Origin: a virus
Strand: one strand, 5' to 3'
DNA length: 27,458 nucleotides
IMG/VR virus record: IMGVR_UViG_3300022169_000024
Span: 1-27,458 of that record
The notes beneath the pieces were generated by a model. That model did not search any database, was not told where the DNA came from, and worked only from the letters and a program-made list of their open reading frames with translations. Below are positions 7,436-27,458 of this stretch, piece after piece (position 1 is the first letter of the stretch; every line of letters starts with the position of its first letter). The translations under genes and the position numbers were made by a program.

Positions 7436-9175
7436 TTATTTATTTACAAATCCTTGATTTGGCATATCAACTGGTCTAGTCGCTACCTTTTTATCGTTTG
7501 TTTCAGGTTTAAAACCTTCCTTCTTAGCTTGATTTACACTTACCTCAGCGTTTGGATTTCCAACATCAGGAGTTACGCCTTCTGCTTTTGCCATATACGT
7601 TTTACGCATCCAGAAATGATGACAAGCACCACCGCCTTTGTAAAGCCAAAGATCATAAGTAGCTGCTCCACCTTTACCCCAACCTGCATTTACAGGTTTT
7701 TTGCTCATTTGTTGTATATCTTCTTTTCTGTATATTTTTTTAGCGGATACCATTTTCTTGCAAAATTCTCTGCTATTAGATTGAGTTCTTAATGGTGCAT
7801 ATTGATAGCGAACTCTAAATTTTACTCCTTCTTTGTTTTCGCCATCTTGTTCACTTTTGGCATTTGACCTTGCGCTACCTGTAGAAGCTAAACCAATCAT
7901 TTTGTCTAAAGCTTCTTCTTGGTCATAATCAACTGGTCTTTCATCTACTAAATCCCATTCTTCTAAATTTTCATCTTCGCCAAACTCTTCAAGTAGTTCA
8001 AACATTTCGTTATCTTCAAACGACTGCTCCTCCTTAGACATTTTAACGCCTGTTTCCTGCTCCCTAGCTTCGTCAGTGATGGCATTATCGGTTTCTATAA
8101 ATTCCAGCGGCTGAGACGTCTTAAAATACAATTTAAGGCTAATACCATTAACAGCTAGTATGTCATCCATTGCATCAGTGATTAAATCCTGATATGGTTT
8201 AATAGTAACGTTGTTAAATAGTAGTGAAGCAGTTTTTATTTCGTCTGCGTTGTTTCCTAGTCCAGAATTACCATCTCTAATACCTAAAAGTAATGGCGAA
8301 GTAATACGGTGTGACACCATAAGCTTACCAGTACATTCATTTGAAAGGTATTCGTAATGAGCAGGAGCATCATTTAAAGGAACGTCATCAATTGTTGTTT
8401 TGCTTTCTGCATTGTTGTTAAAAGCAATAATAACCTTTTCGCCTCTTGCACCTGATAGCTTGTGCATTACATCAGATTTAATCTGAAGTTGTTTTTCCCT
8501 ATCTGGTACACCGTTATTAAAATTGACTACTTTAGTTCCGCTAAAACCATTTTGTACATCATTGATAAGGTAGTCTGATATTTCGTTTTCTAGTTCTGCG
8601 TAAGCTAACCCCCCCTGATAATCTACAGGAGCGTAGTAATCATATCCAGAAACGTATCTTTTTATAATTTTTATTTCAGATTCCTTTCCGTTACCAAATC
8701 CAAAAGAAGCAATTCTCAAAGGCTTATCATTTGGCTTTAATTTAGACCAATCGTGAAAATAATAATAAGCTTCAATATCTCCATCTTCATTACATTTTTC
8801 AGCTCTTAAAGTTTGTCTTGGAAAGTGTTCTGATTTTACAACCTCACCATCTTTGTAAAGAACTTGAAATGATGCTTCCCCTAGTAGTTTTAAATCTAAG
8901 GAAATCTTTCTTAAACATTCATTACTAAATATTGATCTTAAAGCTGCATACTCATCTGGCTTGGAACTGCTGTTTAAAGCATCTACTCCCTTACCATATA
9001 TCATTTGACTAACTCCGTTTATAATTGCGTTATTAGTCGTTGAATTGGTGTATAAATCAATTAAATAAGAATAGTAATCGTTATCTTCACCATAATTGAC
9101 CCATTGACGTTTCTTGTCTTCCGTAATCTTAGGTCTATTGTATGATGCTAAATTAACTATGTGTAAATTATCCAT
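7436..9175 (-). CDS. Portal protein with an extra C-terminal domain
   Basis: The 579-residue product has the features of a dodecameric portal. Visible are an N-terminal region with NNAIINGVSQMIYGKGVDAL, a mid-region LGEASFQVLYKDGEV, the wing/stem segment KLMVSHRITSPLLLGIRDG, and a following long helix (ASLLFNNVTIKPYQDLITDA). Portals are usually about 400-470 residues. Here an acidic linker (about 370-440) leads to an additional module (about 455-540) with RYQYAPL, NSREFCKKM, YRKEDIQQM, GWGKGGAATYDLWLYKGG and CHHFWMRK. The extra module looks like one I associate with XkdF-type proteins of flavobacterial prophages. The ATG overlaps the upstream stop as TAATG. Confidence 0.85.
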   Translation of the reverse strand: MDNLHIVNLASYNRPKITEDKKRQWVNYGEDNDYYSYLIDLYTNSTTNNAIINGVSQMIYGKGVDALNSSSKPDEYAALRSIFSNECLRKISLDLKLLGEASFQVLYKDGEVVKSEHFPRQTLRAEKCNEDGDIEAYYYFHDWSKLKPNDKPLRIASFGFGNGKESEIKIIKRYVSGYDYYAPVDYQGGLAYAELENEISDYLINDVQNGFSGTKVVNFNNGVPDREKQLQIKSDVMHKLSGARGEKVIIAFNNNAESKTTIDDVPLNDAPAHYEYLSNECTGKLMVSHRITSPLLLGIRDGNSGLGNNADEIKTASLLFNNVTIKPYQDLITDAMDDILAVNGISLKLYFKTSQPLEFIETDNAITDEAREQETGVKMSKEEQSFEDNEMFELLEEFGEDENLEEWDLVDERPVDYDQEEALDKMIGLASTGSARSNAKSEQDGENKEGVKFRVRYQYAPLRTQSNSREFCKKMVSAKKIYRKEDIQQMSKKPVNAGWGKGGAATYDLWLYKGGGACHHFWMRKTYMAKAEGVTPDVGNPNAEVSVNQAKKEGFKPETNDKKVATRPVDMPNQGFVNK

Positions 9176-10229: not shown

Positions 10230-11156
10230 CTACGAGTAAAGAACGATGTCTGAACCAATTGCGTGCTGGATTCCAGCAGTGTATCTCATAACGATTCTTA
10301 CATTTTGAGAACCATCGATGTCAGCCATATCAATTACTTTTACTTCCTGAGAATCTGAAAGTAAGCCAGTTCCAAAGAATAAGTTGCTTTTTTCAGCAGC
10401 TACCATAGTGTTTGATGTCATACCTTGACCTAAAGCAACATTGATACCATCAAATGTAAGTGCTCCACCGTTAAACCATTGTGTTCCTTTGTTGTCTGTA
10501 CCAGCAGCTCCTACGTTTGTAGCGAAGCCTCCTAATGCTCTTACATAAGCTCTGTATACGTTTGGAGCAACATAGATAGTCAAGTCTTCTGAACCGTAAA
10601 CAGTAGAAGGAATTGCATCAACTGTCAATCCAATTTTCTCGACTGCATTTGCAGCTGTTACAGCAGCACCTGCTCCTACATCGATAACATCCCCATCTGC
10701 TGCTAGAGTAGTAAGGAAACCATCAAATTCTCCAGCGGTAGCATTTGTACCAGCCCAGATTGTGTTTTCAGTTTTTTGTGCAACTTTACCAGCAACGTGA
10801 GCAATTAAGAAATCGCTGAAGCTAGAAGGTAGATCAGAAAAAGCTGAATACCCCATAGAAATTGCTTCCCAGTCAGATACGAAATCTTTCTTACACAATT
10901 GTAGGTTTACTTGGAACTCTTCAGGTTGAAGGATTCTTTCAGTTAAAGTTAAGGTAGATGTTGCAGCAAAGTCGCAAGATCCGTTAGCAACGATATCATC
11001 AGTCGCTACTTTTTTCATCACTTCTTTGAATTTTACGTTTGGCTTGATAGTGATTAAATCATTTGCCAAAGTTGAACCACTTAGAAGAGCTGCAGAAACA
11101 TATTTTCCTGCAAATTCCCCAGCATAAGTAGTCGTAATAGATGTAGTTGTCGCCAT
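10230..11156 (-). CDS. Major capsid protein (HK97 fold)
   Basis: The 308-residue product has the length and pattern of HK97-fold major capsid proteins. There is an N-terminal arm (MATTTSITTTYAGEFAGKYV), a possible E-loop/spine region with FKEVMKKVATDDIV and LTLTERILQPEEFQVNLQL, and an A-domain region with DAIPSTVYGSEDLTIYVAPN. The C-terminus has NLFFGTGLLSDSQEVKVID and RIVMRYTAGIQHAIGSDIVLYS. The phrase YVAPNVYRAYVRALGGF is typical for this fold. The gene follows a scaffold-like gene after 14 bp and is followed by a terminator, as is usual for capsid genes. No N-terminal delta domain is present, which agrees with a separate scaffold. Confidence 0.88.
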   Translation of the reverse strand: MATTTSITTTYAGEFAGKYVSAALLSGSTLANDLITIKPNVKFKEVMKKVATDDIVANGSCDFAATSTLTLTERILQPEEFQVNLQLCKKDFVSDWEAISMGYSAFSDLPSSFSDFLIAHVAGKVAQKTENTIWAGTNATAGEFDGFLTTLAADGDVIDVGAGAAVTAANAVEKIGLTVDAIPSTVYGSEDLTIYVAPNVYRAYVRALGGFATNVGAAGTDNKGTQWFNGGALTFDGINVALGQGMTSNTMVAAEKSNLFFGTGLLSDSQEVKVIDMADIDGSQNVRIVMRYTAGIQHAIGSDIVLYS

Positions 11157-13076: not shown

Positions 13077-14594
13077 TTAAATTGATGCTGACTCAATAAT
13101 GTTTCTATCTAATGCTTGTGCAGAGGTTACATCTGATGCTACTATATAGGCTTTTTGTGGTTTGCTTTCTTTTTCGCCTATTGCTTGTGCTAGTTGGTTT
13201 TCTGGTGCTGCTCCTACAACGTTAAATGCTGGGGCTGATGATATTGATGGTGCGGATGCACCTCCGCCGCCTCCAGGTGTTTTAACTGACAATATACTTT
13301 TAACCGTTTTAAGACCAGAGCCTAAGATTGTTGCTGCTGATATTACTTTTTGAATTGAACCAAATGGCTCAGGGATAGTTGTTGGGCTTCTTAAAACTTC
13401 TGTAAACCCTACATAACTATTAATAGTTGCGCTTGCAATTCCAGCAGCTTTTCCAGCGGCAGATGCTTCACCAAGTATGCTAGATATTTGACCTAATGTT
13501 TCACCAGCAAGATATATCTTTTGGTCTTCTAATATTTCAGTTTGTAAAAGAGTTTCTCTTCTACCTATTTCTTCTTTGGTAGCCAGTTCTTTATTACTGT
13601 CACCTACTTTTATATTAGTTTCTATTTTAGCTAACCCTTGAGCTTTTATACTTGATACGGTTTTAACCCTTTCTGTTTCTTGGTTTTCAAGATTAAAATC
13701 CCTTATCCTTTTTTGTTCTGCCGCTTCTAATGCTAATAACTCAGTTTCTTTTTTATATATAGCTTCTTTTTCCCCAGCGTTTAATCTAAGTAAATTTATT
13801 TCTTCTTCTAGTAATCTTTTTCTTAAATCAAATAATTTTTTAGCTTCAATGCCTGCTGCTTGTGATACTGCAATTTCCCTTTCAATTTCCTTTATGATTT
13901 CAGAAGTAGCTTCTTTAACTTTTAAGGCAGCTCGTTCAGCTTCACTTGGTAATATTCCTAAAAATTCTAATATAGGTTTAGCGGCTTCAAATAAAGAATC
14001 AAAAGCACCTTTAACCGCATCAATTGCTTTACCTATAAATGGTACATTATTAACAAACCTTTTTACCCCTGCAGTAATATCATCCCAATACGCGACAATA
14101 GTTCCTAATGCCACAACAAAAACCCCTATTCCACTTGCTAATAAAGCTTTCTTTGTAGTTGTTCCAAATAATTTTGTAGCAATACCTGATTTTTTAGCTG
14201 CAATAGCAACTTGACCAAAACCTTCAGATACATCTTTTATACCTAGTCCTACTGCGATAGCGGAAGCAGCCTTTTCTTCAAAAGCTCCAAATGCTTCAGA
14301 TTCAATTCCTAAAGCACCTAATGTTCCAACTGCAGCAGATAACGATCCTCCAAATATTTTTGCAGCACCATCAGCAGCCATAATCTTATCTTCTAGATTA
14401 AAGCCTTCTATTGTGTTGTTTATTTTTTCAATCTCTTTATTTAATATTTGAGACTTTGCCGCAAGTTCTTTAAATGCATCACTATTTCTATCAACATCTT
14501 TAAGCTCTTGATTTACTTGTTCTAATTGGTCTTCTAATTGACCTAATGATTTAGAATCAACATCTAATTCTATTTTTATTTTTTTCTTAGCCAT
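13077..14594 (-). CDS. Tape measure protein
   Basis: The 505-residue protein shows tape-measure features. The N-terminus is a coiled coil (KSLGQLEDQLEQVNQELKDV) and is followed by Ala/Gly-rich helices (about 70-150). One or two hydrophobic segments follow (LASGIGVFVVALGTIVAYW, about 152-170), then long charged helices (about 215-345). The C-terminal end is Gly/Ser-rich (TPGGGGGASAPSISSAPAF). At about 1.5 Angstrom per residue it would give a tail of roughly 75 nm, so a short siphovirus-like tail is expected. It overlaps the upstream 51-codon gene by 19 bp. Confidence 0.85.
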   Translation of the reverse strand: MAKKKIKIELDVDSKSLGQLEDQLEQVNQELKDVDRNSDAFKELAAKSQILNKEIEKINNTIEGFNLEDKIMAADGAAKIFGGSLSAAVGTLGALGIESEAFGAFEEKAASAIAVGLGIKDVSEGFGQVAIAAKKSGIATKLFGTTTKKALLASGIGVFVVALGTIVAYWDDITAGVKRFVNNVPFIGKAIDAVKGAFDSLFEAAKPILEFLGILPSEAERAALKVKEATSEIIKEIEREIAVSQAAGIEAKKLFDLRKRLLEEEINLLRLNAGEKEAIYKKETELLALEAAEQKRIRDFNLENQETERVKTVSSIKAQGLAKIETNIKVGDSNKELATKEEIGRRETLLQTEILEDQKIYLAGETLGQISSILGEASAAGKAAGIASATINSYVGFTEVLRSPTTIPEPFGSIQKVISAATILGSGLKTVKSILSVKTPGGGGGASAPSISSAPAFNVVGAAPENQLAQAIGEKESKPQKAYIVASDVTSAQALDRNIIESASI

Positions 14595-14732: not shown

Positions 14733-17700
14733 TTAATAAAATATTTGTACGTTAGAACAAACTCCATTCATAATCTGACAGGAAAGTCCTGAATTAAAAC
14801 TAGCCTCGCCACTTAATAGATAATTATAAAAAGCATAATAACCATCTGGCGGATGTGGAGTTAAATCTGTAAGTAATCTTGGGTTTTTAAATAAATTAAA
14901 TCCATCTTTTATAGGCACTATTGGCTCAGATAAACTAGTTCGGTTTGAAAATTGATAAATGCCATTTCCAATTTGTCCTACTGTTGTTCCAAGGTTTTTT
15001 GCATAACCTTCGGCAGTAGCTCTATCATTTGCGTGATAACCTGTTGATCCATAATAAAAATTTGATATTGAGTCCAAGTCCATACCACTATGTGAATATT
15101 GTATTTGTCTTCCGTCAGGAACAAAAGAATAAGGATCACCTTCAACTACATAAGGAACAATTGTTGAGTATATAGTTGCTCCAGTAATGTTTGCAAAATC
15201 CGTAAAAGTGTTGTCTTGGTTTCTTATTCTAATCGTTCTTTTACTTGAGCTAATAGGCAATTCGTATTTTCTAATATATCCTTCAACACCTACGTAAGTT
15301 GGACTTTCAAAAGTTTTAACCGTTTGAATAGGTGTTATATTTACACCACTATCGTAGCTTGGATTGTTATTTGTAATTGCATAAGTTTTATAGTAAATAA
15401 AGTCAGGAGCTGTCAGTCCTTTTACCGTAAATCTCAAAGGCTCTGGAATTGAGTATATGGGAGCAGCAATGGGATGTTCAATACTTATATTAGTGACGTT
15501 TGCATTTGCTTTTAAAGTCGCTATGTCGTTTGAAGTTAATTCTGATTCTGTTTCAGAATAAAAGAATCCATACTCCGCAACTTGCTCAGTAGCTCCAATC
15601 TTACCTAGCGCATCAATTTTCATTGCTAAGGATACCGTAGTTGTTGTTGATTCTGTTGGGGTTACATATCCAATTACAGGTGCAACGACTACTATTGGAA
15701 CTCCTGCAACTGTAGTGGTTATTACATTGCTAACTGCGGTGTCGTTTGGAATCTCTTCATCAGTTGATACAACTTCTAATCCTTCACTATTACAATCTTT
15801 ATCGGCAGTAAATGAAGATGTATCTGATAAAACAAAAATACTATCTGCTGTAATATCACAATCCGCATCAGGCAAAAACTTAGATGGTACAATAATACCA
15901 ACATCTTCTGATATATTTATTAATTCTAAGTTGCTTAAAAGCGTTTCAAAGTTTGTATTTATACTATTTATCTTATAAGACTTATTAAATATTACAATCT
16001 TATCAGCTAATGATAATTTGTGTAATGTGCTTACAGGTAAATATGCTTTGATTTTTGTTAGCCTCCTTCTTTTGTCAAATACTTCTTCTATATATGTTTT
16101 GTAATATTTTTCAAATAAGCTTTTATTAAATGGAATTAATTCGTATTCGTTTACTTCTGCGTTAAAATTTAAATTATCGCTTGTATCTACACCGTTTGCT
16201 TCATTAAAAAGGTGTAATGAGTTTGAAGGTATAAAGTAAGTTGATAAGGATGACACACCTCCTGAGATTGGTTTATATCCAATAGATGTTCCTGTGACTT
16301 TTTCAGGATAAAACAAAAGAGGTTTTCCTAGTGTTGGCGATTGTGATGAGTCTACACTCCACCCATATTGAATAGTCGTCTCGGCTTCTGTGTTGGCATC
16401 AATTAACCTTTCATATTTAAAATGTTCAAAGGGTATTTTAATGTCATATACATCACCGCTTAATTTATCGTCTCCAGTATATTTAACAGAACCCCAGTCT
16501 TTATTAAATTGCTCTTTGTGGTTTTCTGCTAGAAAACTTTCTAGTCCTTCGTATGTAAAATTAATTTCCCTATATGGTAAAACTGTATCAATAGAAGATG
16601 ATTCTTTATCTAGGTCTTTTGTGATGTCCCAATAAACCTCGCTGTTTGAATAGTAGTCATCCAAAGCTTGTATTTTAACTTCTTTGCTTTCTGTTATGTA
16701 TGAAGTAAGATTAAACATTTTAAAAAGTCCTTGAAGAAACTCTATAATCTTCATATCTGGTAATTGATTTGCAACTTGCAAAATCTTATTTGACCCAGTA
16801 TTAATTGATTGTTTTAAAAATACATACCTTTCAGTTGTGTACCACAATTCTTTTTGATCTCTTCTTAAATTCCAAAGAATCTCGAAAGTACCCACTTCGT
16901 TAGTAACTAGCTCAGCGTGGATTGATTCGTGAGGTGGTAAGCTTCCAATATCAAATGTTTTTGTACCAACTTGGTCATCAAAGCTTTTCCATAGTTCACC
17001 ATCCTTGTATATTAAAAGACTGTATTTTAAAACAGCACCTATTGTACTAATAGAAACTTCAGCTCTAGGATTTCCGTGACCTACTGTAGCAAATGTACTA
17101 CCTCTTAAATATTGTAAAACTCCATATTCTTGATCATTTCCCCCTTCTTTTGTATAATTGTCAAATAATACAGTGTTGATTTGATCTTCAAATACTCCTC
17201 CAACCTTGTTATGAAGCCACACATATAGATCAGAAAACGATGCGTTGTTCCTACTAAAGAAGTCATCAGAAAATGTAAATCCAGCAGGTTTAAAATATTG
17301 GCTTTCAATTGCTTTTACAATAGCATAAACATTCAATGCAGGTTTTAATTGACTTGCATTTACACCACCTAAAGCTGATCCACTATCGTAGTATAGGTTT
17401 GCTAGTTCTTCTGTTGTGCTAGTCGCTGCGCTTGAATCATAATAAAGCCTTTGACCATAAGTTATCAAAGGAGTTATAATTGCTTTGTCATATAAAACCC
17501 CTTCAGATGTTATATCTAGTCCACTTGTTATTGAACTTAATAAATTAGCATCTGTATAGTCAAATTTAAAATTAGCTAAAAATGAAAGTGAACTTAGTTT
17601 AGTATCTCCAAGCAAGTCTTTTAAGTTTACAGTATTGCCAAAGAATGTAAGCCTGTATGTATGAGGTTTATTTAGTTTTAACGTACTACCTTCAAGTTTT

Positions 17701-17993
17701 ATTTTACCTTTCTTAAAAGGCTTGTAATTAAGGTACAGCTCCGCATCTATCTTTTTTCTACCATCAAAAGAATTGACATTTGGATTGTCCTCGTTATCAA
17801 CTATATCAGAATTGTAAAAATGCTTAAATATTTTATTATTTACTTTACTTGCAGGAATTGAAAACGTCTGCGTAAACTCAGTAAATATTTTATCAATAGC
17901 TTTAACGTCTTGGATGCTTTGCGATAGTGTTACCGTTTCATCATCAAACATTTCTACTTGCTGACCCTCTACATAAAGCTGTAATGCTATCAT
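14733..17993 (-). CDS. Large tail-tip / baseplate-like protein
   Basis: At 1086 residues this is the longest product. The N-terminus (MIALQLYVEGQQVEMFDDET, then SFDGRKKIDAELYLNYKPFKKG) resembles conserved tail proteins of Bacteroidota phages and prophages. The middle (about 400-690) is beta-rich with many aromatic residues. A Cys-containing stretch (about 700-740) is followed by a Thr-rich fibronectin-III-like module (about 760-900). The last part ends in a small domain with SGMDLDSISNFYYGSTGYHA and a terminal GLSCQIMNGVCSNVQIFY, which could be a host-contact tip. The start overlaps the upstream stop (ATGA). A tip or central-hub role is inferred from size and order. Confidence 0.65.
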   Translation of the reverse strand: MIALQLYVEGQQVEMFDDETVTLSQSIQDVKAIDKIFTEFTQTFSIPASKVNNKIFKHFYNSDIVDNEDNPNVNSFDGRKKIDAELYLNYKPFKKGKIKLEGSTLKLNKPHTYRLTFFGNTVNLKDLLGDTKLSSLSFLANFKFDYTDANLLSSITSGLDITSEGVLYDKAIITPLITYGQRLYYDSSAATSTTEELANLYYDSGSALGGVNASQLKPALNVYAIVKAIESQYFKPAGFTFSDDFFSRNNASFSDLYVWLHNKVGGVFEDQINTVLFDNYTKEGGNDQEYGVLQYLRGSTFATVGHGNPRAEVSISTIGAVLKYSLLIYKDGELWKSFDDQVGTKTFDIGSLPPHESIHAELVTNEVGTFEILWNLRRDQKELWYTTERYVFLKQSINTGSNKILQVANQLPDMKIIEFLQGLFKMFNLTSYITESKEVKIQALDDYYSNSEVYWDITKDLDKESSSIDTVLPYREINFTYEGLESFLAENHKEQFNKDWGSVKYTGDDKLSGDVYDIKIPFEHFKYERLIDANTEAETTIQYGWSVDSSQSPTLGKPLLFYPEKVTGTSIGYKPISGGVSSLSTYFIPSNSLHLFNEANGVDTSDNLNFNAEVNEYELIPFNKSLFEKYYKTYIEEVFDKRRRLTKIKAYLPVSTLHKLSLADKIVIFNKSYKINSINTNFETLLSNLELINISEDVGIIVPSKFLPDADCDITADSIFVLSDTSSFTADKDCNSEGLEVVSTDEEIPNDTAVSNVITTTVAGVPIVVVAPVIGYVTPTESTTTTVSLAMKIDALGKIGATEQVAEYGFFYSETESELTSNDIATLKANANVTNISIEHPIAAPIYSIPEPLRFTVKGLTAPDFIYYKTYAITNNNPSYDSGVNITPIQTVKTFESPTYVGVEGYIRKYELPISSSKRTIRIRNQDNTFTDFANITGATIYSTIVPYVVEGDPYSFVPDGRQIQYSHSGMDLDSISNFYYGSTGYHANDRATAEGYAKNLGTTVGQIGNGIYQFSNRTSLSEPIVPIKDGFNLFKNPRLLTDLTPHPPDGYYAFYNYLLSGEASFNSGLSCQIMNGVCSNVQIFY

Positions 17994-18976
17994 CTAACGT
18001 TGTTTATTTTATCAAATGCAAATTCAAAATCTACTTTGTAATCAATTAGTTTGTCGTTTAATACTGTTTTAAATTGTAAGTTTTTAGTTGTTGGAATGAT
18101 TGGCAAAGTTTTCTCGTTATATCTTATCCATAAATTCTCAGACAAAAATAACTCTTCTATTGTGTCGTTCATATCTTCTTTTATAAAACCAGTGTTTAGA
18201 GATATTCTAGAAGTTGCATTTATATTGTATCTAGTTTGTTGTGCTTGATTTACTCCATAGGTTACTGTTGAGCTGTTTATAATATTCCTTTTAAACTTTT
18301 CATCACTTACATTAAAGCTTTCAATTGTCTTTTTAAAGAAATATAAATCTTGGAATGCGCCATACCTGTTTACAAAAGTTACTTTGTAAGGTGTGAATTT
18401 TGGCTCACATACATTTACAACCGTTATGGTTTTCTGTGTTGTCCCTCCGCTATCTTTTACAGCTATTGTGTTAGTGTTTGCAGGAATGTCTATATATTGA
18501 ATTTTTTGATTTGTATTTCCGTTGTCTGTTATTGCTGTAGTTACTGAGTCAATAACAACGCTTCCAGTAGTTGCTGCATATACAGGGAGCTTTCCTGCTG
18601 TATCTTCTGGTAAGTAAATGGTACTACTACTAATTAAATCATAAGCGGTCAACTGAGGGTTTATTTCGTCCTCATAAAAACCATACCCATCAAAAGCCAA
18701 ACTTGTATTTGTAACAGGTGATCCATAAGTAAAGATGGTATCAGTATCATCTATTAAATTTGCTACGGTTGTGACCCATACTGTTTTAGATAGATAGTCA
18801 TCGTTAAAGTTTACATCTATGTAGTCCCTTACAATTTCGGCTATCTCAAAAACTATATTATCTTGATAGCTTATGATTGATTTTTGTAAAGTGTATTTTA
18901 AATCGGTATCTGTGTAGCTTCCTGATATACCACTATAAATATAGATACTTAGATTAACTGATTTTAATGTTGCCAT
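17990..18976 (-). CDS. Tail protein, possibly distal tail/baseplate component
   Basis: The 328-residue product begins MATLKSVNLSIYIYSGISGS. It has two beta-rich halves around a central region with SVTTAITDNGNTNQKIQYID and TIAVKDSGGTTQKTITVVNV. The C-terminal half holds PYKVTFVNRYGAFQDLYFFK, a phrase I recognise in conserved tail proteins of flavobacterial phages. It is followed by an ATGA overlap with the 1086-residue tail protein, so the two are probably made together as partners. A Dit-like or adaptor role is a guess based on order. Confidence 0.6.
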   Translation of the reverse strand: MATLKSVNLSIYIYSGISGSYTDTDLKYTLQKSIISYQDNIVFEIAEIVRDYIDVNFNDDYLSKTVWVTTVANLIDDTDTIFTYGSPVTNTSLAFDGYGFYEDEINPQLTAYDLISSSTIYLPEDTAGKLPVYAATTGSVVIDSVTTAITDNGNTNQKIQYIDIPANTNTIAVKDSGGTTQKTITVVNVCEPKFTPYKVTFVNRYGAFQDLYFFKKTIESFNVSDEKFKRNIINSSTVTYGVNQAQQTRYNINATSRISLNTGFIKEDMNDTIEELFLSENLWIRYNEKTLPIIPTTKNLQFKTVLNDKLIDYKVDFEFAFDKINNVR

Positions 18977-18986
18977 TTTTTATATT

Positions 18987-20495
18987 TTATAATTGAAAGC
19001 CATTACCGTTACCACCGCCATCACAATCCCAACGCCAAACTTCTGTTACTATTCCGCTATTGCTTATTCTCCAAATATGAAAAGCTCCTGAAGTACTTGA
19101 GATTGAACTTGAATTTCTAAAACTATCTACTCTATAATATTTATCTCTACCAAACCAAGGTTCTGCTGCGGTTGTTGTTCCAAATACAGTTGAACAAACA
19201 GTTGCATTATAAGCATCACCTAAACCTGTTGCGCTTGATGCTATTGCTGTTGTTGCGCCACCAAAACTATTTTGACAAAAATCCTCTGGAGCTTCACCTA
19301 CAAAACTTTGCTGGATGTAGTATGTGTTTGTGCTAGTGCTACAAGGGTTAAGTTGTGCGGGTTGTGTTATTGATTTTGTACAAGCTACTAAAGCATTAGC
19401 GTTCGAGTAAGCAGAAGAGTTAGGCACTCTTATATTGAATGTTATTGATCTTTGTGTTGGAGTTGAAACCTCTACAAACTTAATTGGTGTAGTTGTCTCT
19501 ATTATTCCAACTGTTGAATCACCTGTTTTTATAGTTCCATCTGTGTAGATTGCTTGATTTGTTAGTATCGTAGTATCACAATCAAAAGGAACAGCACCAG
19601 TTCCTGGTTGGCTAAACAACTTAGAACATTCAATTTGTACTCCTGCATTTCCGTATCCTGTGGGTACTGTTATTAAAAAATACAAAGTTACATCTCTAGC
19701 TGAAGATGTTGTGTTTGCAACGTAGCTAGTAATTGATATTCCTCCTGATGTTGCTCTTATCTCTGCTATTGTACCAATTAAACTTGGATTACTAATCGTG
19801 CCATCTTGTGCAATACTTCCGCCTGTTAAACCTGCTGAGTCTACTCCAGTTGATGCTACACATCCTAAGTCATTATTAGTTGCAATCGTTACTGTTATTG
19901 GTTGAATTGCTACACAGCTATTCGGTGATGAATCAATTGCCTTTACATACACAACCTTAGTTCCGCCTACATTTAAAGCTGTTAAGGCTAGAGTTGTCCC
20001 TGTCGGTCTGCTCATAGCTACAAAGCTAGGATGTGGGTTTACTATAATATAAGCCTCAATGGCAACTGTTCCTGCATTAAAATAAGAAGTTAAATCTATA
20101 GTGTTGGTATCTCCTGCTCCTGATAATGATTGTGTTGGAATTGTTCCGTTTGCAGTTGGACCATTTACACAAGCTGCTGCTTCTTGTACTGCTGTTTTAG
20201 AGCATAACAAATAACCACCTCCTGAGTTTGAAAATCCGTTAGGTATTACAATTTTAAAAGTCACCGTTCTAGTTGATGAAGCTCCTACTGGTGCAAACTT
20301 GTTATTTGCAAAATCCCCTGCTGTGCTTGTAAAAGAATCTATATATCCGTAATCTAAAGTTGGTAGTGTTACCGTTCCATTTGTATCAATAGAATAATCC
20401 GATAGGTTAGCTATTGCACAAGTAAACTCAGGACTTGGCTTTGTAGGTGTAACGTATTCTAAGTAATATGGACTTCTTGCGTTTATTTTGCTCAT
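18987..20495 (-). CDS. Tail protein with three Ig-like repeats
   Basis: The 502-residue protein begins MSKINARSPYYLEYVTPTKP, a recurring N-terminus in Bacteroidota phage tail proteins. It has three divergent repeats of about 85-90 residues (roughly 25-110, 213-297, 305-385). Each begins with a Cys, has a T.TGTI/DGTI turn and a T.TF.I.VP.G strand, and ends with a C.K...Q phrase. The paired Cys suggest a disulfide-stabilised beta sandwich. The last 110 residues hold a distinct domain ending in FHIWRISNSGIVTEVWRWDC and a Gly-rich tail. The ATG overlaps the upstream stop (ATGA). The role is probably surface binding or tail decoration. Confidence 0.65.
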   Translation of the reverse strand: MSKINARSPYYLEYVTPTKPSPEFTCAIANLSDYSIDTNGTVTLPTLDYGYIDSFTSTAGDFANNKFAPVGASSTRTVTFKIVIPNGFSNSGGGYLLCSKTAVQEAAACVNGPTANGTIPTQSLSGAGDTNTIDLTSYFNAGTVAIEAYIIVNPHPSFVAMSRPTGTTLALTALNVGGTKVVYVKAIDSSPNSCVAIQPITVTIATNNDLGCVASTGVDSAGLTGGSIAQDGTISNPSLIGTIAEIRATSGGISITSYVANTTSSARDVTLYFLITVPTGYGNAGVQIECSKLFSQPGTGAVPFDCDTTILTNQAIYTDGTIKTGDSTVGIIETTTPIKFVEVSTPTQRSITFNIRVPNSSAYSNANALVACTKSITQPAQLNPCSTSTNTYYIQQSFVGEAPEDFCQNSFGGATTAIASSATGLGDAYNATVCSTVFGTTTAAEPWFGRDKYYRVDSFRNSSSISSTSGAFHIWRISNSGIVTEVWRWDCDGGGNGNGFQL

Positions 20496-21007
20496 TGTGT
20501 AAAATCTAATAAATCATCTATGTCTAATGCGAACTTATCTACCAACTCATTAGGAAGCTTTTCAAAGCCTTGTTCAAATGGTTTGGTAAAAAAGAAACTC
20601 GCTTTAATTCCTTTTTCAAATATGCTTTTGGCTAATATAAATCCTATAGTTTTGTAATTACCTTTTTTAAACTTACCTTTTTTATCTCTTAACCTTATAT
20701 TCTTTTTCTGTGCCCAATCTGCTAATGGTTGCATTGGAGGTCGTTTAGTGTTAAAACTAAATCTGCTGTTTCTATTTTCAGGGTAATTGCTTTTCTTACC
20801 CTTAACACCTTCATCAACAAAAGCTCCATATTCATCCATATAGAACTCTAAGTAAAAACTATTCTTACTAACATTTAAATCATAACCCAAGCTCTCGTAT
20901 AAAGAAGATGTAACATTCTTTTTCTTTTTAGTTAAGTTAGTACGTGATTGTTTAATCACAAACTTTGCAAAACTTTCTAACGCTGCTTTGGTTTGTTTAA
21001 AATCCAT
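20492..21007 (-). CDS. HK97 gp10-like tail completion protein
   Basis: From the ATG at 21007-21005 (TAATG overlap with the upstream stop) the product has 171 residues beginning MDFKQTKAALESFAKFVIKQ. An ATG 9 bp upstream is possible but less well placed. It is strongly basic and holds YGAFVDEGVKGKKSNYPENR and PPMQPLADWAQKKNIRLRDK, typical of HK97 gp10-like neck or tail-completion proteins. The WAQKKNIRLRDKKGKFKKG part is conserved in Bacteroidota phage versions. The next upstream gene is a probable tail terminator, which fits the usual pairing. Confidence 0.7.
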   Translation of the reverse strand: MDFKQTKAALESFAKFVIKQSRTNLTKKKKNVTSSLYESLGYDLNVSKNSFYLEFYMDEYGAFVDEGVKGKKSNYPENRNSRFSFNTKRPPMQPLADWAQKKNIRLRDKKGKFKKGNYKTIGFILAKSIFEKGIKASFFFTKPFEQGFEKLPNELVDKFALDIDDLLDFTQ

Positions 21008-21465
21008 TAGTCGCAAATTGTCATATCGTTCTGTACCAAGACATCAAACGTTGCTGTCCATCCTGCAAGCTTATTCTCAAACCTATCCACAAAAGGCTCA
21101 CAACTGACATCACCAGCCACTTGATATAATTCAGTATATAAATCCCCTCTCTGTAAGTCATTGATCACCCTTGTTAATAATGCTAATTGCGTGTTTAGTA
21201 CATCTTGTTCATTGTCATTTCCTACGAACTTATCCGTAGCTTCTTCTTTACTAATGTCTACAATGTCCATTGCAAGGACTGAAATATTAAATGTCGTTGT
21301 TTTAGTTCCTACCGTTGCTGTATTAACTATAATGTGTGCTAAGGGAAATATTGACTGCTTGTCTAAATCAACATCATCAATGCTACCAAAGCTTACTGTA
21401 TTAGTAAATGGCTCAGCTTGAAATGCTGTTTTAATTTTATCCGTTATGTTGTAAAAACCTTTCAT
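21007..21465 (-). CDS. Probable tail terminator protein
   Basis: The 152-residue product begins MKGFYNITDKIKTAFQAEPF. It has an alpha-beta pattern with FPLAHIIVNTATVGTKTTTF and a C-terminal strand WTATFDVLVQNDMTICD. Length, order (just upstream of a gp10-like protein) and the ending fit tail terminator proteins of flavobacterial phages. Such proteins cap the tail tube and join it to the neck. The ATG overlaps the TGA that ends the -1 extension of the preceding gene, which points to coupling with the frameshift product. Confidence 0.65.
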   Translation of the reverse strand: MKGFYNITDKIKTAFQAEPFTNTVSFGSIDDVDLDKQSIFPLAHIIVNTATVGTKTTTFNISVLAMDIVDISKEEATDKFVGNDNEQDVLNTQLALLTRVINDLQRGDLYTELYQVAGDVSCEPFVDRFENKLAGWTATFDVLVQNDMTICD

Positions 21466-22204
21466 CTTTTTCTTATTCTTTTTGCTTCCAATTCTTGTTT
21501 CTCTTTTTCAAAAACCAAATATAGTAAAGCAGTGTTTACATTTAATCTAGTGACTTCGTCAAACTTGGTAACGTCTCCTTTAGCGATTCCATAAACCGAT
21601 TGATACCAACCCCACTTGATGCCAAAGTTTGCCTCTGCTCCATAGTTAGTTCCTTCTTCATTTCCTTGCTCAAATAGTTCAGGGTAATTGTCAACAACTC
21701 GTTGCTTAAACGATAAAAAAAAACCAGTGATCCCATTACAACATCCAAAGGCATTTGTTTAAATGCTTCAGCGTTATCTGTTCCCTTGTAATCTTCTATT
21801 TGGTATTTGTCTTTCTTCTGTAGTGTAACAGGCCTGTAAAGCACTGACATTGCTTTGTGCATTTGTTCCCAGTCTGATAGTGTGTTATCTAGGTCTATGT
21901 ACTCTCCTAAGGTCATATCGTCTAGCTTTGGTATAAAACCATATGTAATGCCATTAAGTTCAAACGTAGGCTTTAAATCAGGCTTCTGTTCGAATACCTT
22001 GTTTAGATCTTCTATGATGTCTGTGACGTGGTTGAATCTAATAGTTGCAATATCCTTGAGATCAAGGTTGCAGAATATCTCAACCATCTTATGAAGCAAG
22101 AAGTTAGTGTTCTGGTTATCTTCAGTATTAAGCTTGGTAAACCTTTGATATTGCTCTAAAGGTATATCGCTTAATGAGTCTGGAACGTATAAGTCTATAA
22201 TCAT
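21462..22204 (-). CDS. Predicted -1 frameshift fusion of the chaperone-like protein
   Basis: If ribosomes slip back one base after decoding TTT TTT at 21721-21716, 163 zero-frame residues are joined to 84 new ones (247 total). The extension begins LSFKQRVVDNYPELFEQGNE and holds FGIKWGWYQSVYGIAKGDV and TKFDEVTRLNVNTALLYLVF, ending EAKRIRKR with TGA at 21464-21462. This frame has no ATG, GTG or TTG start between its upstream stop and the slip site. It is open for 255 bases, well past the zero-frame stop at 21542. Its last 80 bases lie where the zero frame has ended, and its TGA overlaps the next ATG. I recall similar stretches in flavobacterial phage tail modules. Confidence 0.7.
21542..22204 (-). 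CDS. Tail assembly chaperone-like protein, unshifted form
   Basis: The zero-frame product from ATG 22204-22202 has 220 residues and begins MIIDLYVPDSLSDIPLEQYQ. The phrase with DSLSDIPLEQYQRF recurs in proteins of this size in marine phages. It is helical in its second half (FFYRLSNELLTITLNYLSKE onward). A start at 22264 would lie inside the terminator hairpin and is rejected. At the zero-frame T9 run (codons GTT TTT TTT TAT, 21724-21713) a second frame opens (see the fused entry). The overall design resembles gpG/gpGT-type chaperones, but it lies about 7 kb before the tape measure, so the function is inferred. Confidence 0.7.
   Translation of the reverse strand: MIIDLYVPDSLSDIPLEQYQRFTKLNTEDNQNTNFLLHKMVEIFCNLDLKDIATIRFNHVTDIIEDLNKVFEQKPDLKPTFELNGITYGFIPKLDDMTLGEYIDLDNTLSDWEQMHKAMSVLYRPVTLQKKDKYQIEDYKGTDNAEAFKQMPLDVVMGSLVFFYRLSNELLTITLNYLSKEMKKELTMEQRQTLASSGVGINRFMESLKETLPSLTKSLD
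21715..21723 (-). other. T9 slippery site for -1 frameshifting
   Basis: Nine consecutive Ts on the minus strand, read as GTT TTT TTT TAT in the zero frame. A heptamer T TTT TTT fits the X-XXY-YYZ slip rule. It is the only long homopolymer in this gene and lies exactly where the -1 frame becomes long and conserved in appearance. No stimulatory pseudoknot was worked out. Confidence 0.65.
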
Positions 22205-22922: not shown

Positions 22923-24092
22923 TTAATATATAAAGTATTGACCTTTAGTTGGGTTTTCTAACGTATCAGTCATTATATATCTAGCTGCATCTATACAATC
23001 AGGATGTGCACCTGTAGGCTTTTGTAGCTGATTACCTTCTTTGTCTGTAGACCAGACATATCCTTGTAGTTCTCTTATTAGATTTTTGCTATTAGATGTT
23101 ATGTATATTTCATTTTGGTTAATTAAGTTTAATCCATACACTACTGAATCTCTTCCTTTGCTAACTCCACTTATAAGATGACCATAACTTTGCAATTCTG
23201 CAATTGATTTTGGTTCTGCTGAATCAGCAACGACTCTATCTACTATCTGTTTATCAAACAAGAATCTACTAATATCACTATTAAGCATTCCTTTCTTATA
23301 TAGTACCTCATCAAATATATATGCTTGATTCCATTTATATAAAGCAATTAAGGTTGTAGGGTCTACAGAATATCCAAAGTCCATACCATACCCTAATAAT
23401 CTAATACCATCAGGCAAGTTGTCTATTTGTTTCCAGTCAGATATACACGCTCCTTGCAACGAACCAGTTTGACCAAGACCATAAACATTCCACCAGTTTC
23501 TCCAATATGTAGATGTCTTAGCTTTCTCTCTAGCTTTCTCAATCTCATCTACTATGGTAATAGGTAAACTATCGTTGTCTTTATAAGTTAATGTTATATA
23601 GTCAACATCTTTTTGACCTATTACTTCTTTATCAACCCAGAATAAAGATGATGGATTATAATCTAACCAAACATTTCCTGATGTTCTTACTACTAATTGA
23701 TTGTACGCATCAAACGGAATATTATTAGCCTCATTCATGTATAAATCAGTTCGTCTTGCTCCTCTAAGTTTATCAGGCTGATCCGTACTAAAGAACTCAA
23801 TATAACTTCCGTTTGTAAAAGTATATTTTAAAGTACTCTTATTGAATTGATTATCTTTGTATCTATGTAAACCTTTAAGAATACTTAGAAAGTCCTTTAA
23901 AGCGCCTCTACGTAAGTGTGGTACACTCTCAGACACTACACTTATCTCCTTGTCAGGATTTTTAATAGCATAATCTATTAGAATAAGTAAAATACAAATT
24001 GTCTTACCAGCTGATGTTCCACCTCTTACAACTTTTATCCTACTATCTAATGATCTTAATTTAGTTAACGCTTCGGTTTTTTTAACCTGCAT
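22923..24092 (-). CDS. terL: Terminase large subunit
   Basis: The 389-residue product has both terminase domains. The ATPase has Walker A GGTSAGKT (24-31), Walker B DLYMNE (116-121) with the catalytic Glu121, and a WLDYNPSS motif (142-149). The RNase-H-like nuclease has Asp238 in LGYGMDFGY, Asp290 in VVADSAEPK and Asp368 in HPDCIDAARY. These drive ATP-dependent DNA translocation and cut genome concatemers. It resembles the PBSX/phage-terminase group by motif style. It follows the small-subunit gene by one base. The length is slightly short but complete. Confidence 0.95.
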   Translation of the reverse strand: MQVKKTEALTKLRSLDSRIKVVRGGTSAGKTICILLILIDYAIKNPDKEISVVSESVPHLRRGALKDFLSILKGLHRYKDNQFNKSTLKYTFTNGSYIEFFSTDQPDKLRGARRTDLYMNEANNIPFDAYNQLVVRTSGNVWLDYNPSSLFWVDKEVIGQKDVDYITLTYKDNDSLPITIVDEIEKAREKAKTSTYWRNWWNVYGLGQTGSLQGACISDWKQIDNLPDGIRLLGYGMDFGYSVDPTTLIALYKWNQAYIFDEVLYKKGMLNSDISRFLFDKQIVDRVVADSAEPKSIAELQSYGHLISGVSKGRDSVVYGLNLINQNEIYITSNSKNLIRELQGYVWSTDKEGNQLQKPTGAHPDCIDAARYIMTDTLENPTKGQYFIY

Positions 24093-26467: not shown

Positions 26468-27103
26468 CTATATTACTTTATTTAAAAAATTACTATATAA
26501 ATGTATATTGTGTGCAAAATGATAATACTCACCAACTTTTATGTTTAATTTTAAAGACACTAATTCTTGTAATTTACTAAAACAATATTGATCATTACAA
26601 AACCCATACCAAAGATCATTTGATCTCATCATCACAGACATATTTAATTTATCGTTAATTATAGTAAATTGAATCGCATAAGTGCAAGGTGTGTCGTTAG
26701 AGTAAGTATCTATTTCTTTGCCATCATATATAGAAATTGTAGCTTGTCTTGTATTGTTATTTGTTCTTAATATATCTATTACTTTATCTAATTGATTGTT
26801 TCTATTCCATTGCCAACCATAATTAGATCTAACATTACCATCCTCATCCATCATATTTTTCCATATAGGTGCATATTTTGATATTTCTATAGCTGATGGA
26901 TCTCCTGATAAATACCAATCCCATTCTCTATCAGCATACTTATTAGACCAATTTCTAACTTTGTTATTTATCTTGTTATCTAAAGGATTTAATATTGTAA
27001 ACCCTCTATTAAATAAAGCTTTAGTATTAGCAAAATTAATACCATAGCAAGTTATTAAATGATAATACTTTTCAAATGCTTCATTTGCGTTGTTAAATTT
27101 CAT
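26468..27103 (-). CDS. Thymidylate-synthase-fold nucleotide enzyme, dCMP-type active site
   Basis: The 211-residue protein has the ThyA fold: REWDWYLSGD (59-68), SNYGWQW (93-99), catalytic Cys140 in DTPCTYAI, RSND (160-163), and the HLY end (201-203). Distances match E. coli ThyA exactly: Cys to Arg is 20, Arg to the next key residue is 11, and that residue to His is 30. The residue at E. coli Asn177 is Asp171 here. Asn177 makes ThyA specific for dUMP, while T4 dCMP hydroxymethylase has Asp. dCMP methylation or hydroxymethylation is thus possible. Many phage relatives are annotated thymidylate synthase. Neighbours are a probable PLP enzyme and a MazG-like protein. Confidence 0.85.
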   Translation of the reverse strand: MKFNNANEAFEKYYHLITCYGINFANTKALFNRGFTILNPLDNKINNKVRNWSNKYADREWDWYLSGDPSAIEISKYAPIWKNMMDEDGNVRSNYGWQWNRNNQLDKVIDILRTNNNTRQATISIYDGKEIDTYSNDTPCTYAIQFTIINDKLNMSVMMRSNDLWYGFCNDQYCFSKLQELVSLKLNIKVGEYYHFAHNIHLYSNFLNKVI

Positions 27104-27113
27104 GTTTGTTTTT

Positions 27114-27458
27114 TTATATAAAATCTTTTAAATCATTCCAATCTCTATACGAATGTACTAATTTTTTATCAATTGTAGGCAAAGGTGCTTCACCAGCTAC
27201 ATTAAAAAACCAATCACCATGTTTACCATATCTATTCATGTAGTCCCAACCTTTTGAATCATAACTATTCTCACAATCAAATTCTTTAGGTATTAAATCA
27301 GCTTTAGAATTAAAAGGTTTATGATAAGAAAAAAACTCAGATCTACCTAATTCACCGTGTTGTATGTTTCTAGATACAGCAACAGATTTAAAATTAGTTG
27401 TAGGCAATGATATTTGAAGAGATCTAGTCAATACGCCTGTAGATATTACAGACCACAT
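27114..27458 (-). CDS. Probable PLP-dependent enzyme, C-terminal part (partial)
   Basis: The frame is open to the window edge. Its first Met codon is the last three bases, so the true start lies outside. The 114 visible residues hold WSVISTGVLTRSLQISLP, SYDSKGWDYMNRYGKHGDWF and FNVAGEAPLP. The pattern of a Gly-Val-Leu-x-Arg-x-Leu-Gln stretch followed by a YDxKxW motif resembles small phage proteins annotated as fold-type II PLP enzymes (threonine synthase or ACC deaminase-like). The PLP lysine would be in the missing N-terminal part. It lies 10 bp before the ThyA-like gene. The assignment is from memory and moderately uncertain. Confidence 0.5.
   Translation of the reverse strand: MWSVISTGVLTRSLQISLPTTNFKSVAVSRNIQHGELGRSEFFSYHKPFNSKADLIPKEFDCENSYDSKGWDYMNRYGKHGDWFFNVAGEAPLPTIDKKLVHSYRDWNDLKDFI

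Follow-up and report, generated by a model that had tools for sequence, protein, structure and literature searches.

A gene beside the terminase in a large family of Bacteroidota phages appears to encode two proteins from a single start codon, the longer of which would be reached through a switch into the -1 frame at an invariant run of thymines. The explanation that fits best overall, and that we regard as probably correct, is that a selected slippage site yields two products forming a tail-assembly-chaperone-like pair, with slippage most likely set by the length of the run. Comparative analysis demonstrates selection on the slip site, on the -1 extension, and on the zero-frame tail across the family.

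The gene was detected in a viral contig of 27,458 nucleotides, the whole of which was analyzed and is referred to here as the window. It lies on the minus strand, where the zero frame runs from an ATG at 22204 to 21542 and encodes 220 amino acids, comprising an N-terminal domain (residues 1 to 163) that would be common to both products and a C-terminal tail of 57 codons. The protein matches PHROG 32199, a family of unknown function (E = 1.2e-18). A T9 run at positions 21715 to 21723 (A9 on the plus strand) is read in the zero frame as GTT TTT TTT TAT, contains the heptamer T_TTT_TTT in zero-frame phase (21722 to 21716), and no other A or T homopolymer in the window is as long as nine. From this run, the -1 frame (21462 to 21722) reads FF followed by 84 open codons and ends at a TGA (21464 to 21462) located 80 bases beyond the zero-frame stop and overlapping the ATG of the next gene (21465 to 21463). 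Decoding without a slip would produce the 220-amino-acid protein, whereas a one-base slip on T9 would produce a fused protein of 247 amino acids with its last 84 residues drawn from the -1 frame. An earlier note on this DNA had described the same run, the open -1 frame, the overlap with the following gene, and the 247-residue fusion, and all of these numbers hold; the dual-coding stretch, put there at about 175 bases, spans 171 bases by our count (57 codons, 21545 to 21715).

Relatives were sought in viral contigs and bacterial genomes; adding the window itself and two isolates, Nonlabens phages P12024L and P12024S, brought the data set to 322 loci. Every complete site among these loci carries an in-frame T_TTT_TTT, and the same arrangement, in which the heptamer is part of a run of nine or more thymines and a -1 extension follows, is present in all 259 distinct complete sites. 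The run consists of 9 thymines in 214 of these sites, 10 in 43, and 12 in 2, with a minimum of 9, and the -1 extension is open for approximately 84 codons in every one of them. The locus L236, in which the open reading frame (ORF) is truncated, carries T9 as well. The P12024L and P12024S copies, at 28 to 29% identity to the window, were the only matches in a protein-level search of phage records, and a DNA-level search of phage records with the window gene returned no match. The slippage locus was also identified in the bacterial genome of Flagellimonas onchidii. No relatives were recovered with the Psychroflexus copy as the query. A copy on a 7.6-kb contig of an Epsilonproteobacteria MAG (L166) groups with those of flavobacterial viral contigs, and this is probably a misbinned phage contig.

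Hundreds of related marine phages have this T run at the equivalent position, which argues for a real, selected switch. In an alignment of 137 sequences, the number of synonymous differences per matched amino acid is normal until approximately 8 codons upstream of the slip. It drops to 0.27 of normal at the slip itself, remains at 0.3 to 0.5 over approximately 30 codons, and then rises to approximately 0.75. Taken together, the invariant site, the conserved extension, and the drop in synonymous rate from the slip site strongly support a programmed switch into the -1 frame, as the earlier note had supposed. That note had also named three observations that would speak against a switch, namely, a separate start for the extension, an extension broken in relatives, and a T run misread so that both parts belong in one frame; none of the three was seen, as the analysis revealed neither a separate start nor a broken extension, and no contig joins the parts in one frame.

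Because any T9 contains an in-frame T_TTT_TTT, the site by itself cannot separate slippage by RNA polymerase from slippage by the ribosome, and the V-F-F-L junction is identical by either route. Nine thymines is the usual threshold of bacterial transcriptional slippage, and avoidance of such runs is evident from nine onward in many bacterial genomes (PMC1088944). In the other coding sequences of the same contigs, a single T run of at least nine was seen where 14.8 were expected, and A runs of at least nine numbered 19 against an expected 72. Exact T7 heptamers in frame were seen 57 times against 85 expected, an avoidance no greater than that out of frame. The run class changed 17 times on the tree, never to fewer than nine, and the 3' T was lost twice, each time nested among T10 relatives. 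The invariant run of at least nine and this length-dependent, phase-independent avoidance favor transcriptional slippage, and addition of one U by RNA polymerase on the U9 stretch has, in our judgment, slightly better than an even chance of being the mechanism. We infer this preference from patterns that have other possible sources, as run avoidance may also reflect replication errors or replication slippage.

A purely ribosomal mechanism, in which tandem -1 slippage occurs on U_UUU_UUU, the route used by lambda and the majority of known tail chaperones, and the two extra thymines follow from the encoded amino acids, ranks second and approaches an even chance. The heptamer is in phase at 259 of 259 sites, and the tail-chaperone frameshift of lambda is itself ribosomal (PMC5009743). 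Both flanking thymines sit at amino-acid-determining positions (second-position bases of V, L, I, or F codons and first bases of W or Y codons), and since these are nonsynonymous positions, the run-length floor may partly reflect amino acid constraint. Against a purely ribosomal route, the 259 sites extend to below 30% identity and include neither a T7 or T8 variant nor any other X_XXY_YYZ heptamer, and the 57 in-frame T7 heptamers are tolerated in other coding sequences. A downstream stimulatory RNA structure is common at ribosomal -1 sites, although it is not obligatory; simple folding found none in 64 divergent representatives (mean folding z of approximately 0), and Rfam detected no stimulatory RNA near the slip site. 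The earlier note had assumed ribosomal frameshifting, and the phase of the heptamer agrees with that assumption, but the run-length floor and the avoidance of long runs point at least equally to transcription. A bolder version of transcriptional slippage would have RNA polymerase slipping on runs of at least nine thymines, instead of ribosomal frameshifting, set the ratio of two tail-chaperone forms throughout the family, with both alternative C termini, which share a single stretch of 170 bases read in two frames, being functional; we consider this conceivable but somewhat improbable.

A tail-assembly-chaperone-like role is likely but unproven; weak structural matches, the constant location of the gene at the start of a neck/tail cassette, and a Flavobacterium phage relative described below are in keeping with it. 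A fold search of BFVD placed mostly uncharacterized phage proteins on top, with weaker matches to a "Tail assembly chaperone protein" (ctCpR1; E = 7e-3, probability of 0.99) and to a tail assembly protein of a Paenibacillus phage (E = 0.06). Fold searches of the PDB with the N-domain and with the -1 extension returned nothing above noise, chaperone models of Pfam, NCBIfam, and PHROG gave no significant match, and none of the protein family models assigns a function to the slippage gene; a hit to Phage_TAC_7 appeared in 1 of 69 members, at E = 0.077. The description "tail chaperone-like" from the earlier note is therefore plausible from the place of the gene in the operon, from its two-product logic, and from fold matches that are weak, even though the chaperone family models give no significant match. 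Comparative genomics points to two products from one start through a -1 switch (259 of 259 sites, with both frames selected). The two products may be made in a fixed ratio and pair as tail-assembly-chaperone-like proteins, in which the shared N-domain and the -1 domain would each bind a different partner, as for lambda gpG/gpGT.

It is also possible, although we consider it unlikely, that the slippage is real and that the protein is another morphogenesis protein with two C termini, such as a neck or portal-vertex factor. Besides the lack of a match to chaperone models, this idea draws on the gene neighborhood. The conserved order is terminase, slippage gene, 152-aa gene, 174-aa gene, 328-aa gene, 1086-aa gene, small ORF, tape-measure-like gene, protease, capsid, tail-tube-like gene, and portal, traced as far as the portal in the Flagellimonas locus. 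On the minus strand of the window, the terminase large subunit (22923 to 24092; profile match and gene order) lies upstream of the slippage gene, as it does across the family, and the 152-aa gene (21007 to 21465; ORF and gene order) invariably follows. Conserved neighbors beyond it are a 174-aa ORF (20492 to 21010) with a weak match to a tail completion/Neck1 PHROG, a 328-aa protein (17990 to 18976) assigned to the cassette by gene order, and a 1086-aa protein (14733 to 17993) matching PHROG 38559. A 505-aa protein (13077 to 14594) is tape-measure-like by position and composition only. The slip lies at 21.7 kb, the tape-measure-like gene at 13.1 to 14.6 kb, and the tail-tube-like candidate at 9.6 to 10.2 kb, and relatives have the same order. 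The slippage gene therefore adjoins terminase and neck-like genes at 4.5 to 7 kb before the tape-measure-like gene and, in the window and its relatives alike, falls outside the interval between tail tube and tape measure genes that lambda-type chaperones occupy. Against a different morphogenesis role speak the weak BFVD matches to annotated tail assembly chaperones and the layout of one start and two products, which is typical of tail chaperones, and no further frameshifted chaperone candidate was noticed ahead of the tape-measure-like gene.

Other features of the window deserve mention. A 502-aa gene within the cassette (18987 to 20495) is variable, being replaced by an ORF of approximately 190 aa or missing in many relatives. 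The sense strand of the portal gene contains a G7 run (8609 to 8615) that is unusual for an AT-rich phage. Adjacent ORFs at 26468 to 27103 and 27114 to 27458 match PHROGs for thymidylate synthase and, weakly, threonine dehydratase.

Within the dual-coding stretch of the putative chaperone gene, both the zero frame and the -1 frame are under selection, as judged from aligned homologues. The third position of the -1 frame changes there at approximately half the rate of single-coding stretches. For the zero frame, we used a null in which the -1 protein was held fixed and synonymous codons were redrawn in 35 representatives of less than 60% identity. A zero frame open for at least 50 codons was observed in 33 of the 35 representatives, compared with approximately 1 of 35 expected, and in 72 of 72 pairs, zero-frame amino acid identity was higher than -1 coding would predict; selection on both frames follows from these results. 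Codon-level comparison across homologues, as the earlier note had proposed, thus reveals constraint in both frames. Such a long stretch selected in both frames is unusual for a gene of the tail-chaperone type. The zero-frame continuation past the slip is typically approximately 55 to 70 codons, with 25 in P12024L and 37 in the locus L167, and AlphaFold2 predicts for the zero-frame product a helix that continues to approximately residue 184, with low confidence beyond residue 195. A weaker alternative to a functional zero-frame tail is that the open frame merely keeps ribosomes on the message until the next gene.

The -1 extension has the signature FFLxFRxR...YxELF...FGxKWGWYQSIYxLAxGDVxRF...TKLxxHxCL...FEKEKxELE, and in the window it reads FFLSFKQR...KWGWYQSVYGIAKGDVTKFDEVTRLNVNTALLYLVFEKEKQELEAKRIRKR. 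AlphaFold2 predicts a helical C-terminal domain of four helices (mean pLDDT of 75.8); one row from a public phage record was left out of the input for structure prediction. The Flavobacterium phages FPSV-D15 and 2A encode a remote relative of 293 aa in an uninterrupted ORF, and this protein can be aligned with the fused product over its full length, including the junction (hhalign probability of 77 to 80%). This single-frame relative spanning the junction supports the extension as a real C-terminal domain of the same protein. We had considered Flavobacterium phage 6H as a second frameshift case and rejected it, as its split results from indels that neither of its sister phages, 2A and FPSV-D15, has. 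Because both sisters have one 293-aa ORF there, the 6H record (KC959568) appears to contain indel errors, and its annotated 191-aa gene (10352 to 10927) is a fragment.

The public records of P12024L and P12024S list the extension as its own ORF with an ATG, annotated in P12024L as the separate hypothetical gene 41, which might suggest an independent gene with its own start or re-initiation; this is highly improbable. An ATG occurs within the first 45 extension codons at only 22 of the 259 sites, at scattered positions, and upstream between a stop and the slip site at 3, in line with the statement of the earlier note that the extension has no usable start codon of its own. Conservation of the block starts from the slip site, which in P12024L is the T9 in gene 40, and the remote relative has both parts in one frame. 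We rejected the separate-gene reading on the scarcity and scatter of start codons. Genes 40 and 41 of P12024L (JQ823123) are one slippage-fused gene, as are genes 38 and 39 of P12024S. Least probable of all is that the T run is a sequencing error or varies in phase at the DNA level. Homopolymers are error-prone and mutable, and indels divide the remote relative in 6H but not in its sister phages. However, the parts are joined in one frame at 0 of 259 distinct sites, and the downstream zero frame is itself under selection; sequencing error is thereby refuted, and phase variation is very unlikely.

A slippage-fused chaperone-like pair would extend the near-universal slippage of tail chaperones to an abundant and uncharacterized group of flavobacterial phages from marine settings; in the isolate records that we examined, the two halves of the gene are listed as hypothetical proteins with no relation to each other. 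Should the switch act in transcription, it would show that phages arrive at the same protein ratio through a different step of gene expression and would provide a testable model for the Bacteroidota, in which recoding has been little studied. Within the incomplete coverage of our literature search, no paper described a tail chaperone produced by transcriptional slippage, and none described a chaperone with a frameshift in phages of Bacteroidetes.

Several known systems share parts of this design. The P2 E/E' genes (Phage_TAC_7) have a T-rich slip site, and their -1 frame overlaps the zero frame by tens of codons. The slippage gene resembles them in both respects, although its match to that family is insignificant, and P2 is not known to have an invariant run of at least nine thymines. 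Transcriptional slippage sites of the 9A or 9T type, as in Shigella mxiE, Thermus dnaX, and IS elements, likewise have a homopolymer of at least nine at which one added nucleotide fuses overlapping frames, and coding sequences elsewhere avoid runs of this length; in mxiE, the insertion takes place at a U run (PMC1088944). Unlike these examples, the gene described here is a morphogenesis gene of Bacteroidota phages. The Flavobacterium psychrophilum phages FPSV-D15 and 2A (Unahavirus) match the fused product in a single frame, but their protein involves no frameshift and the homology is remote. As in lambda gpG/gpGT, which the earlier note took the arrangement to copy, two products have the same N terminus, the longer one would arise through a switch into the -1 frame toward the 3' portion of the gene, and the gene belongs to the structural operon of a tailed phage. 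The likeness is only partial, as the slippage gene has no sequence-family match to gpG/gpGT, its run is T9 or longer whereas lambda has a mixed heptamer, approximately 57 selected zero-frame codons continue past the slip, and the gene stands next to the terminase, as the first of the cassette, rather than adjoining the tape measure. What seems new is a logic like that of lambda G/GT combined with an invariant run of at least nine thymines, a long tail in which dual coding is under selection, and a gene position that is unusual.
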